Source: Chitinivibrionia bacterium (lineage in GTDB: Bacteria > Fibrobacterota > Chitinivibrionia > Chitinivibrionales > Chitinivibrionaceae). From it: a stretch of 42,650 nucleotides of DNA. The notes under the pieces were generated by a model that was given only the letters and a program-made list of their open reading frames with translations, made no database searches and was not told where the DNA came from. Position numbers and translations under genes: made by a program. The stretch is taken from positions 1 to 42,650 of the forward strand of contig WRAZ01000016.1 in assembly GCA_009779925.1 (NCBI GenBank), in the 5' to 3' direction. Positions within the stretch are counted from its first letter, which is position 1, and every line of letters starts with the position of its first letter. Of this stretch, positions 4,469 to 38,230 are shown in pieces.

Positions 4469-4498
4469 AAGGCAAGCCGGATGGTTTGCCTTTTTTTT
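4469..4498 (+). terminator. Terminator after pepA
   Basis: AGGCAAGCC pairs with GGTTTGCCT (one G-T pair) and is followed by eight T residues. Confidence 0.8.
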
Positions 4499-4556
4499 GT
4501 TGGCATTTAGTATTTTACCTAAAACTGATGAATGCAAATTTTCAAAGGAAACAAAA

Positions 4557-5960
4557 ATGGCTCAACTTGCAACTGTGGCGGTCGTAGGTCGTCCGAATGT
4601 CGGAAAATCGACGCTTTTTAACAGGATATTGAACAGAAAAATCGCGGTTGTTGATGACAGACCGGGCGTCACCCGCGACCGAAATTATATGGACGCAGAA
4701 TGGTGCGGCACGCATTTTACCATAATCGACACGGGCGGAATGGTGCCGCAGTCAGGCGAAAAAATGGAGCAGGAAATAAACCGTCAGGTCGAAATCGCCA
4801 TAAATGAGGCGGACGTTGTTTTGTTTTTGGCTTCGGCGGACATTGAGCCGACCGACCTTGACTGCGAAATAGCCAAACGCCTGCGAAAACAATGCTGTGA
4901 AAAACTGGTTTTGGCGGTAAACAAAACCGAAGCGCCCTCTGCCGAGCTGGTTATGCAGAGTTATTGGAGTTTGGGATTGGGCGAGCCGCTTGCAATTTCG
5001 GCGCTTCACGGAAAAGGCGTGGGCGATATGCTCGATAAAATCGTCGAAAAAATAAAAGGCATAACAAAGAAAAAAGAAGAGATAAATTACGCCGTAAAAA
5101 TAGCTGTTGTCGGTTGTCCGAACGCAGGAAAATCGTCGCTCATAAACAAAATTTTGGGCGACAAACGAATGATAGTCAGCGAAATTGCAGGCACAACCCG
5201 CGACAGCATAGACACCACCATTGACTACAACGGAAAAACGATAAAACTAATTGATACGGCAGGGCTTCGCAAAAAAGCGCGAGTAAACGACGACGTGGAA
5301 TACTACTCAAATTTGCGTTCTATCGGCAGTATCGGACGTTGCGACGTAGCGGTTTTATTGGTGGATACCGCGCGAAAACTGAGCGAGCAGGATATGAAAA
5401 TCGTGGCGCACATAAAAGAAGAGCGCAAGGGCTTAATTATCTGCTGGAACAAGTGGGACATCATCGAAAAAGACGGCAAAACCTTCGATTCTTTGGTGAA
5501 AGCCACCCGCGACGAATACAAGGACTTGGAAAATATTCCGATGCTTTCGATTTCGGCGATGACAGGGCAACGGGTCGCCGAGGTAATGAAATTAACGCTG
5601 AGAATTAAAGAAAATTCGCAAAAAATTGTAGCAAAAACCGAACTCGAAGACCAATTTTTCTCTTGGACGCGCCGAAATCCGCATCCATATATAGTAGGAC
5701 AATCGGTGCGCTTTTTGGGTATAAAGCAACAGCCAAGCCCGTATCCGCATTTTGTAATTTTCTGCGCAAATCCAAAGCGCGTTTCGGAGGATTATATTCG
5801 CTACCTGAAAAACAGAATTTACGCGGCTTACGGTTTTGAGGGCTCGTTTGTCGTCATTGATTTTAAGGGACCCGGCAGAAGCGGCGCAAAAAACAGAGAG
5901 CAGTTTTCCGGCTACCGAGACGGCGGCGGTGATTACGATGATTATGAGGGAGACGATTAA
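4557..5960 (+). CDS. der: Ribosome assembly GTPase Der (EngA)
   Basis: Der has two GTPase domains and acts in 50S subunit maturation. The ATG at 4557 follows CAAAGGA; upstream in-frame codons lack a site. It has 467 residues. The first G domain has P-loop GRPNVGKS (11-18), PGVTRD and DTGG; its G4 motif reads NKTE rather than the usual NKxD. The second G domain has GCPNAGKS (186-193), AGTTRD, DTAG and WNKWD. The C-terminal KH-like domain follows, and the last 25 residues form a Gly/Asp-rich acidic tail (GGGDYDDYEGDD). It stands alone between a terminator and a REP-like palindrome, and the 12-mer TAGTATTTTACC lies about 40 bases upstream. Confidence 0.96.
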   Translation: MAQLATVAVVGRPNVGKSTLFNRILNRKIAVVDDRPGVTRDRNYMDAEWCGTHFTIIDTGGMVPQSGEKMEQEINRQVEIAINEADVVLFLASADIEPTDLDCEIAKRLRKQCCEKLVLAVNKTEAPSAELVMQSYWSLGLGEPLAISALHGKGVGDMLDKIVEKIKGITKKKEEINYAVKIAVVGCPNAGKSSLINKILGDKRMIVSEIAGTTRDSIDTTIDYNGKTIKLIDTAGLRKKARVNDDVEYYSNLRSIGSIGRCDVAVLLVDTARKLSEQDMKIVAHIKEERKGLIICWNKWDIIEKDGKTFDSLVKATRDEYKDLENIPMLSISAMTGQRVAEVMKLTLRIKENSQKIVAKTELEDQFFSWTRRNPHPYIVGQSVRFLGIKQQPSPYPHFVIFCANPKRVSEDYIRYLKNRIYAAYGFEGSFVVIDFKGPGRSGAKNREQFSGYRDGGGDYDDYEGDD

Positions 5961-5968
5961 AAAATTTC

Positions 5969-6041
5969 CGTAGGGGCGGGGTTTGCCCGCCCTAAAACGC
6001 AGAATCGAACGAATGCAGGGCGGGCAGACCCCGCCCCTACG
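5969..6041. repeat. REP-like palindrome between der and panB
   Basis: Two 25-base arms (5969-5993 and 6017-6041) are inverted copies with one mismatch. Each outer end reads CGTAGGGGCGGGG. The loop has 23 bases. There is no T-tract, so it is more likely a dispersed repeat than a simple terminator, though it may stop transcription after der. Confidence 0.8.
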
Positions 6042-6064
6042 TATAATGAAAGGAACGCATAGTG

Positions 6065-6856
6065 ATGAAAAACCAAAAAACAATAGCAATGCTTACCTGT
6101 TATGACGCGCTTACGGCAAAAATAGCCGAGGACGCGGGTATCGACTATTTGCTTGTAGGCGACAGCGCGGGAACAAATGTTTTGGGCTACAAAAGCGTAA
6201 ACGAGGTAAAACTCGACGATATGATATTCTTGACAAAATCGGTAAAGCGCGCCAACACAAAATGCAAAATAATTGTGGATTTACCGTTTGAGGCGGTTTA
6301 CGAAAACAGCGAAAACATAGTTCTGAGCGCAAAAAAATTGCTTGAAGCAGGCGCAGATATGGTGAAACTCGAAATAGAAAAAGAAACTCAAGAATTGCTT
6401 AAAACGCTTACGGAAGCGGGCATTCCTGTCTGCGCGCATATCGGCTATACTCCGCAAACATCATATCTTGAAGTTTCCGTTCAAGGCAAAGACGCCGTTC
6501 GCGCAAGAAAATTGGTAGAATTTGCAAAAACCTCGCAACTTTACGGCGCTCAAATGCTTGTTTTGGAGTTAATCCCCGCAAATTTGGCAAGATACATAAG
6601 CGAAATTTTAAAAATTCCCACAATCGGCATAGGTGCAGGGCAATTTTGCGACGGTCAAGTGCAGGTTTGGTGCGACATTGCGGGCTTTTCTGAGAAAACG
6701 TACAAACATTCTCATTTGTTTGCAGATGCAAAAAGCGCGCTTTCGGCGGCATTTTCGGATTATGCGACGCAGGTGAAAAGCGGCGAGTTTCCGACGGAGG
6801 CGAATTCCACGCTTGTTGATGATGAAATACTCTTTCACACTCTCTGCCGCAAATAG
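6065..6856 (+). CDS. panB: 3-methyl-2-oxobutanoate hydroxymethyltransferase
   Basis: PanB makes ketopantoate from alpha-ketoisovalerate and methylene-tetrahydrofolate, the first step towards pantothenate and CoA. The protein has 263 residues, the normal length. Family motifs in order are MLTCYDALTAKIAEDAGID, LLVGDSAG, VDLPF, EAGADMVKLE, AHIGYTPQ (family GHIGLTPQ) and IPTIGIGAG near the C-terminal side. The start is uncertain by one codon: a GTG at 6062 immediately precedes the ATG at 6065, and AGGA at 6051-6054 serves either. No panC or panD is visible nearby. The thyX-like gene begins 27 bases after the stop; both enzymes use methylene-tetrahydrofolate if the latter is a true ThyX. Confidence 0.94.
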   Translation: MKNQKTIAMLTCYDALTAKIAEDAGIDYLLVGDSAGTNVLGYKSVNEVKLDDMIFLTKSVKRANTKCKIIVDLPFEAVYENSENIVLSAKKLLEAGADMVKLEIEKETQELLKTLTEAGIPVCAHIGYTPQTSYLEVSVQGKDAVRARKLVEFAKTSQLYGAQMLVLELIPANLARYISEILKIPTIGIGAGQFCDGQVQVWCDIAGFSEKTYKHSHLFADAKSALSAAFSDYATQVKSGEFPTEANSTLVDDEILFHTLCRK

Positions 6857-8227: not shown

Positions 8228-8240
8228 TAATTCAATTACG

Positions 8241-8302
8241 AATTACGAATTAAAAATTACGAAAGGGAAAAACTCGTAATTCGTAATTTTTAATTCGTAA
8301 TT
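8241..8302. terminator. Long AT-rich palindrome between convergent genes
   Basis: A 22-bp arm at 8241-8262 is perfectly repeated in inverted orientation at 8281-8302 around an 18-base loop, built from AATTACGAATT units. It lies between the convergent thyX-like and wzi-like genes and touches the stop codon of the latter. It probably acts as a bidirectional terminator, or is a dispersed repeat. Confidence 0.65.
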
Positions 8303-28464: not shown

Positions 28465-29232
28465 ATGAACTTAATACTAATAAAACCAAGCGATTATATT
28501 GCAGAAAATATTGCAGAAATTTCAGATTTCCGCTTTGAGCACATCAAAGTAGTTTTGAAAGTGCAAATTGGCGCAATTCTCAAAATAGGGGAGTTGAACG
28601 GCAAAATTGGCACAGGAAAAATTGTGCAAATCTGCGATAAAAGCGTAAAATTAGAGACGGTTTTCGATAAAAATCCGCCCGCCAAAAATTCAGCGACGCT
28701 TTTTTGCGCTCTGCCGCGACCAAAGGTCTTTCGCAGGGTTTTGCTTAACGCTGTGTGTTTCGGTGTAAAAGAAATTCACTTTTTTCAGTCATTTAAGGTA
28801 GAAAAATCATATTGGCAAAGTCCGTTTTTGTCGCAAAAATCACTTGACGAAATTGTCGAAAACGCGCTTATGCAGGCAGTAGATACAGTTTTTCCAAAAA
28901 TTTATTTTCATAAATCGTTCAAGATTTTTGTAGAAGATATTTTTGCAGAAAAGGCGAAAAGTTTCCCGTGCGTGGTGTTTCATCCGAGCGACGACGTAGG
29001 GGCGTATTGCATACGCCCAAATTGCGCGAAGATTGAGGGCGTATGCAATACGCCCCTACAGCGTGGTGTCGTTATCGGTCCCGAAGGTGGTTTTACCGAT
29101 TATGAAATAGATATGTTTCTGAAAAATAACGCCAAAATTGCAAGTTTGGGCGAAAGAATTTTACGGGTTGAGCAAGCGGTAAGCGTTGTTTTATCGCAGT
29201 TTAACTGCGATAATCTAAAAAAACGCGAATAA
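28465..29232 (+). CDS. rsmE: 16S rRNA m3U1498 methyltransferase, with a repeat-derived insertion
   Basis: RsmE methylates U1498 of 16S rRNA and has a SPOUT knot fold. I use the ATG at 28465; an upstream ATG at 28402 lies inside the tRNA. The protein has 255 residues. The N-terminal PUA-like part covers about 1-70. The SPOUT part includes FCALPRPKVFRRVLLNAVCF, the cofactor motif IGPEGGF and LGERILRVEQA (family LGxRILRxETA). Between the fifth strand region and IGPEGGF the DNA holds a 64-bp GTAGGGGCG palindrome (28996-29059), translated in frame as VGAYCIRPNCAKIEGVCNTP and LQ. Length is otherwise within the family range, so the protein may still work. No ribosome binding site is obvious, and the gene follows the tRNAs by 18 bases. 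Confidence 0.88.
   Translation: MNLILIKPSDYIAENIAEISDFRFEHIKVVLKVQIGAILKIGELNGKIGTGKIVQICDKSVKLETVFDKNPPAKNSATLFCALPRPKVFRRVLLNAVCFGVKEIHFFQSFKVEKSYWQSPFLSQKSLDEIVENALMQAVDTVFPKIYFHKSFKIFVEDIFAEKAKSFPCVVFHPSDDVGAYCIRPNCAKIEGVCNTPLQRGVVIGPEGGFTDYEIDMFLKNNAKIASLGERILRVEQAVSVVLSQFNCDNLKKRE
28996..29059. repeat. REP-like palindrome inside rsmE
   Basis: Two perfect 23-base inverted arms (28996-29018 and 29037-29059), starting GTAGGGGCGTATTGCATACG, surround an 18-base loop. No stop codon arises in the rsmE frame. Confidence 0.92.
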
Positions 29233-29238
29233 TTTTCT

Positions 29239-29267
29239 GTAGGGGCGGGTTTGAAACCCGCCCCTAC
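29239..29267. terminator. REP-like palindrome between convergent rsmE and VWA genes
   Basis: GTAGGGGCGGGTTT (29239-29252) is perfectly repeated in inverse at 29254-29267 around a single G. It sits 6 bases after the rsmE stop and 2 bases from the VWA stop, so it belongs to the GTAGGGGCG family and may terminate both genes. Confidence 0.75.
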
Positions 29268-29269
29268 GA

Positions 29270-30559
29270 TTAGTCGGGGAATTGGACGTTGTGTAAGTGA
29301 TAACGCACTGTTTTTGCGATAAATTCGTTTGTGGTTGTTCCGCCGTTAATTATATCGTGAAGCGCTATCATTTCATTCCAGAAAAATTGTATGCTTCGTG
29401 TGTTTATGTCGTTGCGGATATGCCCGAGGCGAGTTTCGAGCAGTGTGCGAAATCCTTCGGCGTATGCTCTGCGAAATGCGCGGTTGCCGACTTTTAATTC
29501 GTCGATTGTCTGTGCCATATTCCAAAGTAATTGAAATTTAATAATTTCTTCCGCTCTGTCGGCGAAATGGCTACTGTTGCCTCTCGCCAAACTCACTCTG
29601 AAAGACGCGCTTCCCGACAAATTTGAGCGCATAGCTATATTTTCGTAATTAAAGTCGATTTCGATATCACTGTTTCTTCGCGGGCGGTTTCTTAATTCAA
29701 AAAACAAATTTGCCGTATCGCCGGGGATTAGTTTGGGAAGAAACACTCTTCGCACATAAACGCTGTCTCCGAAACGTCTTATTTCCATTCCGTCGCGAGT
29801 CATAAGTTCTATTTCTATGTTGCTTGAATGCACGGGGGAGGCAATTCGCGGCGCCATTCTTTCAAAGCGCGACCGAAGTAAATCGGCTCTGTCTCTGCCG
29901 ACAAAATACGCACGTCCGCCTGTTTGTTCTGCGACTGAAATTGCGGCAATTTCATCAAAGTCGTCGCCGTATCCGATTGTATAAACTTGTACGCCCAGTT
30001 TTTTCATTTCTTCAATCATTTTAGGAGCGTAAGAATTGCCGAAGCCGTCTTCCAAAGTTTCGCCGAGAACCGAGAACACAAGCGAGCGACCGCCGTTTCG
30101 TCGTCCTTGATTTTGCTCAAATTCATCGACAATCATTCTGAGAGCAGGCTGTACATCGCGTCCTCTCTCGGTGCTTAACTCCGTAAGTAAACTGTTAATT
30201 CGCTCTCGTCCCGTAAATCCGATTGGCGAAATCGGCAGAATTAGGCGGGCAAAATCGCTGTAAACAATAATGCCGAAAAAATCTTGGTCGGAAAGTTGGC
30301 TGACAAGGTGTCGTCCGCCCATAATCATTTCTTGGCGAACTGTGCCTGCAAATCGCTCGCTGACATCGATTGCATACAATACCTGAAGCGGTTCCGCACC
30401 GCTCTGATTGCGTGATGTATCGGTGTAAACGGTTATCATTAACGGGAATGTTTCGGCGTTTTGCGTCCATTCGCGGTATCGGGAAGTCGGCATAATTTCC
30501 AGCGAAAAAGCGCTTGCAAAAAAGCCGAAAATCATTAAAAAAATTGTAGTTTTTTTCAT
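29270..30559 (-). CDS. Secreted von Willebrand factor A domain protein
   Basis: The protein has 429 residues with a signal peptide (1-19, FASAFS). The VWA domain covers about 55-240: the first MIDAS strand reads LYAIDVSERF (Asp65, Ser67), so the usual DxSxS lacks its last serine. DQDFFGIIVYSDFARLILP and GVQVYTIGYGDDFDEIAAIS are typical of the fold. A beta-sandwich-like region (about 245-335) and a helical C-terminus follow. VWA proteins bind proteins or other ligands, often via metal; this one should be periplasmic or surface-located. It is 13 bases after lptB, with its own GAAGGAG site, and could be an envelope factor transcribed with lptB. Ligand unknown. Confidence 0.85.
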   Translation of the reverse strand: MKKTTIFLMIFGFFASAFSLEIMPTSRYREWTQNAETFPLMITVYTDTSRNQSGAEPLQVLYAIDVSERFAGTVRQEMIMGGRHLVSQLSDQDFFGIIVYSDFARLILPISPIGFTGRERINSLLTELSTERGRDVQPALRMIVDEFEQNQGRRNGGRSLVFSVLGETLEDGFGNSYAPKMIEEMKKLGVQVYTIGYGDDFDEIAAISVAEQTGGRAYFVGRDRADLLRSRFERMAPRIASPVHSSNIEIELMTRDGMEIRRFGDSVYVRRVFLPKLIPGDTANLFFELRNRPRRNSDIEIDFNYENIAMRSNLSGSASFRVSLARGNSSHFADRAEEIIKFQLLWNMAQTIDELKVGNRAFRRAYAEGFRTLLETRLGHIRNDINTRSIQFFWNEMIALHDIINGGTTTNEFIAKTVRYHLHNVQFPD

Positions 30560-38099: not shown

Positions 38100-38230
38100 C
38101 GCTACAAAAAAACGACCGTTTTTTTGCGTCGTTTCATAATATACTAAATGCCTGTAAATAAAGCAAGGGTTTTATGAAAAATCTTGATAAAAAAACGCTA
38201 CAAAAAAACGGTGGTTATTTTGTAGCGTTT
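38100..38230 (+). promoter_or_regulatory. Repeat-hairpin leader before the Ig-repeat lipoprotein
   Basis: CGCTACAAAAAAACG occurs at 38100-38114 and again at 38196-38210. The second copy forms a perfect 13-bp stem, 38193-38205 with 38218-38230 (AAACGCTACAAAA/TTTTGTAGCGTTT), followed by a T-rich stretch. Either copy could pair with the same 3' arm, so the element could act as an attenuator or end a short RNA. The rest of the gap between 37984 and 38280 shows only AT-rich sequence. Confidence 0.45.

Follow-up and report, generated by a model that had tools for sequence, protein, structure and literature searches.

A translated GTAG-type REP doublet in rsmE of a Chitinivibrionia bacterium and its in-frame siblings

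The palindrome at positions 28996-29059, inside the rsmE gene of a Chitinivibrionia bacterium, is a GTAG-type REP doublet (an HH dimer, REPIN-like) with its GTAG ends facing outward, and it is read in frame as part of RsmE. This is an already described kind of event that is unusually common in this genome, ordinary in kind and remarkable in extent. Taken as a whole, the explanation that we consider likely is that of a mobile GTAG REP doublet, in frame in rsmE, probably tolerated there and spread by a REP-associated tyrosine transposase (RAYT). The window analyzed here is the whole 42.65-kb contig (C16), which belongs to a 2.5-Mb genome (G000) of 88 contigs and 97.6% completeness. It was compared with a genome of the same genus (G001), which is without the REP family found in rsmE (family A), and with 168 genomes of the phylum. 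By RsmE match the closest named relative is the Chitinivibrionia MAG WRFX01, from whose record we infer that the relatives belong to Fibrobacterota.

The element consists of 64 bp, in which two identical inverted 23-bp units (GTAGGGGCGTATTGCATACGCCC) enclose an 18-bp spacer, just as the initial annotation had described it, and the rsmE frame translates it as VGAYCIRPNCAKIEGVCNTPLQ (Table 1). Each arm forms a hairpin by itself: its short palindrome closes on a small loop, rests on a base of three G-C pairs and carries an unpaired GTAG head. Because each arm is thus a REP, the whole element is a REP doublet, and the REP-like character first ascribed to it is borne out. The RNA form of the 64-nt element has a folding energy of -47.7 kcal/mol (z = -10.8).

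Table 1. Positions of rsmE, the parts of its REP doublet and two neighboring repeats in the window.
Feature	Position	Strand	Remarks
rsmE, 16S rRNA (uracil-1498-N3)-methyltransferase, 255 aa	28465..29232	+	Reads through the palindrome; Pfam Methyltrans_RNA 1.8e-27; NCBIfam NF008700 2.6e-70
Left REP unit, family A, GTAG head + hairpin GGGCGTAT-TGC-ATACGCCC	28996..29018	+	Read VGAYCIRP; 75 exact genome copies
Spacer AAATTGCGCGAAGATTGA, 18 bp	29019..29036	+	Read NCAKIE; length and AAAT start as in other 64-bp doublets (AAATCGCCGACAGAAATC), interior differs
Right REP unit, family A, inverted	29037..29059	-	Read GVCNTPLQ in the rsmE frame; 23-bp inverted copy of the left unit
Double-foot palindrome GTAGGGGCGGGTTT-G-AAACCCGCCCCTAC, 29 bp, single	29239..29267	.	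Intergenic, between convergent rsmE and the gene at 29270-30559(-)
Family B REP doublet, 25-bp spacer	5970..6040	.	Units 5970-5992 and 6018-6040; intergenic, between ORFs 4497-5960 and 6062-6856

In the window GTAGGGGCG is present six times where 0.11 would be expected; genome-wide it has 223 occurrences and the reversed pattern three, an excess that excludes chance. The repeats are high in copy number and dispersed, with 87 family A units at up to two mismatches (75 of them exact) and 54 units of a second family, B (GTAGGGGCGGGGTYTGCCCGCCC); the reversed controls gave none for either. Units of both families have a GGG/CCC stem base and stand nearly always in facing pairs, of which we catalogued 63 (37 A, 26 B), each made of inverse REPs with GTAG outward and 16-52 bp of spacer between. 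The 29-bp "double-foot" palindromes make up a third family; for them and for single REPs the counts cover 405 kb around GTAGGGGCG sites. Both intergenic copies named in the initial annotation exist, the upstream one as a family B doublet and the one beside rsmE as a single double-foot palindrome. The window also holds a single family A unit with a mutated head (GTGGTAGCGTATTGCATACGCCC) at 2735-2757. Two further inverted repeats were seen there: an A-T rich one at 8234-8302, built of AATTACGAATT units and unrelated to the REPs, and a 35-nt pair, 86% complementary and 58 nt apart, around CGCTACAAAAAAACG motifs at 38100-38227.

G001 contains one GTAGGGGCG against the 223 of the own genome and no full family A unit, so that the REP expansion would either postdate the split from G001 or have been followed by wholesale loss there. 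Read outward, the first base beyond a doublet end is a purine in almost every case (A 0.54, G 0.43, C 0.01, T 0.02). The doublets show no target-site duplication of 1-15 bp.

Within rsmE the reading frame carries neither stop nor shift, as had been claimed for it, and the ORF matches Methyltrans_RNA and NF008700. Its ATG start is that of the relatives; a longer GTG start was rejected, since it would overlap a tRNA-Ser gene. The protein is 70-71% identical to its G001 orthologue. A genome search found no second rsmE-like gene, and the other matches in the own genome were short and to the REP-encoded part. In the alignment of RsmE homologues, a check already proposed with the initial annotation, neither the palindrome nor equivalent residues appear in G001 rsmE or in any other aligned homologue, and the frame is kept. 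This comparison indicates that the REP doublet entered rsmE after the split from the nearest sequenced relative. The addition of about 22 residues, as first put forward, holds for what the element encodes; the protein itself is only 9-12 residues longer at this site than its relatives. The net gain over the G001 orthologue is 11 and not about 22, a length that does not support clean insertion without loss. The insertion may have cost about 11 linker residues, the linker of this lineage may already have been short, or the spacer may be partly native. Since the element has no stop in its V-G-A frame and changes the net length by a multiple of three, rsmE stays open.

The rsmE spacer may derive from the element or from the native linker. 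On the latter reading only the arms would be new, put around the native linker or converted onto it, and NCAKIE would be old RsmE sequence. Removal of the arms alone leaves a linker nearer to homologue length than removal of the whole element, G001 has NLRIFD where the own spacer reads NCAKIE, and spacers vary from copy to copy. The rsmE alignment first favored this reading, which was weakened once spacers proved common to unrelated loci: spacers like AAATCGCCGACAGAAATC recur there in both orientations with small changes (many others are unique), and such identical or near-identical spacers support movement of doublets together with their spacers. Most spacers start AAAT or end ATTT, which likewise suggests that the doublets may travel with them, and the spacers of several loci exceed the corresponding G001 interval in length or bear no relation to it. 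We now regard a purely native spacer as improbable, and prefer insertion of the doublet as a unit.

A second question is whether the inserted doublet inactivated RsmE, leaving a young pseudogene or a dead enzyme. Inserts of the same kind stand in frame in murC, mutL and mnmE, and the rsmE frame is fully open with IGPEGGF and the C-terminal motif residues intact. Pairwise dN/dS against G001 is 0.23 overall and 0.13 downstream of the insert, values that mostly reflect the time before insertion. These observations weigh against loss of function, in favor of which it counts that the insert adjoins the cofactor motif IGPEGGF and that E. coli grown in the laboratory can do without rsmE. The site itself, the linker from VVFHP to IGPEGG, also speaks for tolerance. 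The solved relative 3kw2 aligns through the insert region with a linker of similar length, so the site is naturally length-variable, which makes a tolerated loop the likelier outcome. A structure model of RsmE (prediction with two sequences) reached a pLDDT of 32, too poor for use. We give little credence to inactivation; RsmE with the insert is probably still functional, and the inserted peptide probably forms a loop on its surface. Retention of the element in rsmE for some use, as an expression-tuning mRNA hairpin or a peptide loop with a new binding role, would fit the very stable hairpin. It seems extremely improbable to us, since the element also occurs between genes and within many genes unrelated to one another, gives no hint of site-specific conservation in rsmE and is absent from all relatives.

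The rsmE case is not unique, as emerged when other palindromes were sought inside genes, a search that the initial annotation had also proposed. Of the 63 doublets, 32 lie within stop-free ORFs that are 150 aa or more in length and extend 30 aa or more to either side of the doublet. One of these (C27:19636) was excluded as an antisense artefact that is intergenic against G001. The 31 credible cases fall in 19 separate genes and in 12 paralogues of one family. The separate genes encode MurC, an HrpA-type helicase, MutL, TruA, MnmE, BioB, fumarase alpha, a ComEC-like competence protein, two ketoacyl synthases, an ABC-F protein, a glycosyltransferase, a radical-SAM/DUF2344 protein, an MMPL-type protein, a heptaprenyl diphosphate synthase component, an ABC transporter and RsmE; two more are long ORFs with no Pfam match, one of which has a G001 orthologue. 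Alignments of MurC, TruA, MnmE and BioB with solved homologues break or show gaps at the REP peptide, which amounts to 22-31 extra residues. Two hosts carry more than one element: the MurC ORF (L008) reads through a 62-bp doublet and, apart from it, through a 29-bp double-foot copy (G000:C1:219954 and 220297), and the ABC transporter (L023, G000:C2:129875-130064) has, between its membrane and ATPase domains, a B doublet that encloses an A doublet, each of them in frame.

The frame GTA-GGG (V-G-A) is used in 17 of the 19 genes. Both flanks could be matched in G001 at nine loci, of which the four genic ones differ by 33, 51, 87 and 102 nt, all multiples of three, and the five non-genic ones by 51, 69, 74, 83 and 113 nt. 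Doublet length is 1 mod 3 in 15 of 20 ORF cases, among which the artefact C27:19636 is included (p = 1.7e-4 against 1/3); doublets outside ORFs show the same tendency (15 of 30), and the two groups do not differ significantly (Fisher p = 0.14). The 405 kb contain 26 double-foot REPs, of which 12 are translated in frame within ORFs of 200 aa or more. A fixed rule by which the unit plus 2 nt makes a multiple of three suits most doublets; it was dropped because it fails for the translated 29-bp double-foot copies, which require another change. As for the idea that the repeats are pre-adapted to translation, being stop-free through the RAYT frame, copies outside ORFs were not significantly more open in the V-G-A frame than in the other one.

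Having observed so many dispersed copies, we looked for their mobilizer. No Y1/RAYT transposase was detected in G000 (97.6% complete) or G001 by a search that recovered the positive controls G016 and G075, and no cognate tnpA-REP gene was detected in the own genome. RAYT-like genes are present in 52 of the 168 phylum genomes, including most of the other REP-rich ones (G017, G019, G023, G030, G033, G038, G055). The best NCBIfam match of three RAYT-like proteins is REP_Tyr_transpos, below its cut-off. RAYT subclass 2.4, or RAYT group 4, has "double-foot" REPs and long REPs whose stem base consists of three G-C pairs, and is marked by in-frame REPs within the REP transposase genes, in tnpA between HuH and Y (Quentin et al., 2018; PMC6006769). 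The Fibrobacterota RAYT-like ORFs match the subclass 2.4 motifs NH[IFV]H, WQ and YIxNNP. GTAGGGG/CCCCTAC REPs lie inside the gene in 18 of 29 such ORFs, a share biased upward, since the 29 are the best matches to a profile from three REP-bearing ORFs; most of these REPs follow the HUH motif at a distance of 5-27 residues, and V-G-A is their usual frame. RAYT-like ORFs of related genomes with in-frame internal REPs are found at L237:952-1755, L239:1168-1932, L236:1453-2145 and L245-L274, and the one in L237 has four tandem in-frame copies (VGADLRVCPEMHVCAQRPLS).

The REPs of the own genome look like orphans of a subclass-2.4-type system, a link that we draw because of resemblance and distribution and not because of a resident enzyme. 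Two REP hairpins that can fold in single strands, with a short spacer, would form one of a recently expanded set, spread on single-stranded DNA by a RAYT (TnpA-REP) nearest to subclass 2.4. The mobilizer may have been lost, may be missing from the assembly or may act from elsewhere. In rsmE the doublet would have landed in a linker of already variable length, and the insertions surviving in genes would be only those that are in frame, stop-free and tolerable.

The 12 paralogues with doublets belong to a family with a type IX secretion C-terminal domain (CHU_C, 29.3 bits against a cut-off of 27 for the insert-free form). An extra in-frame segment, nearly always recognizably palindromic, occupies one loop, between GNVVF and WNLTN, in 37-38 of 42 extracted paralogues (e.g., L018, L028, L065, L068, L139, L150, L275-L324); the four copies in G001 have no such insert. 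These segments comprise 18 double-foot, 10 B and 2 A inserts along with singles or pairs of about five other families, some not of the GTAGGGG type, so that about eight palindrome families meet at this loop; the insert of L307 is unclassified. In L308 and L317 the insert is a double-foot REP with its own loop interrupted by a second palindromic piece (GGGAGACAGGGTCTCC), again in frame. A tree of the flanks, which has many weak forks and might be scrambled by gene conversion among the paralogues, requires 18 changes of family label; the minimum would be nine, and shuffled labels average 22.2. All 10 B-type copies have the same spacer, and 10 changes are needed for them, of which at least seven are forced by well-supported branches. 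This pattern suggests exchange of palindromes at the tail loop. On a tentative proposal, about which we are more doubtful than hopeful, the loop would be more than a place of tolerated accidents: paralogues would exchange about eight palindrome families there, and the secreted proteins would thereby become more diverse.

These results illustrate, with an insert-free genome of the same genus for comparison, that coding sequence can be colonized by a mobile repeat in the form of readable peptide, and that its inserts reach enzymes usually counted as essential. Translated inserts confuse annotation and structure prediction, and they are natural experiments in insertion tolerance. Should the tail loop indeed serve for such exchange, REPs that are non-autonomous would contribute to protein diversity and would no longer count only as parasitic or regulatory DNA.

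REPINs have been described mainly as extragenic elements with a resident RAYT. The doublets resemble them in being two inverted REPs with a variable spacer (Bertels and Rainey, 2011; PMC3116915), may like them be dispersed as a unit, and differ in that many are translated and that no RAYT was detected in the own genome. With Rickettsia palindromic elements (RPEs) they share in-frame translation in many unrelated genes, whereas their GTAG ends, sequence and lineage are different; the element works like an RPE and is not one. According to one survey, the ends of some RPEs are CGTC (Di Nocera, De Gregorio and Rocco, 2013; PMC3733652), while the rsmE element ends in GTAG/CTAC. CGTC repeats are not known to have a transposase of their own. 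To subclass 2.4 REPtrons the likeness lies in the stem base of three G-C pairs, the double-foot REPs and the RAYT-like ORFs of the phylum with internal REPs; unlike those REPtrons, the own genome has REPs without a detected transposase, and its REPs lie in dozens of host genes too.

Finally, as in the GTAG REPs of the 2013 survey, GTAG stands at one end of a short G-C-based hairpin, and the repeats face each other in pairs at 20-100 bp with GTAG outward. In-frame insertion was thought at first to be unreported for this repeat type, a view that the available text of PMC3733652 and PMC6006769 contradicts. The former describes GTAG REPs inside known genes of several species, many as dimers coding for 20-30 residues, in hosts that include DNA repair proteins and pseudouridine synthases. 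That same text does not mention the phylum, nor was the unit GTAGGGG found in it. Most REPs in the survey are intergenic, with Opitutus terrae the richest in intragenic GTAG REPs, whereas here about half of the doublets lie in ORFs. Judged against the available text of both papers, what is new is a lineage that neither mentions and an unusually high intragenic share.
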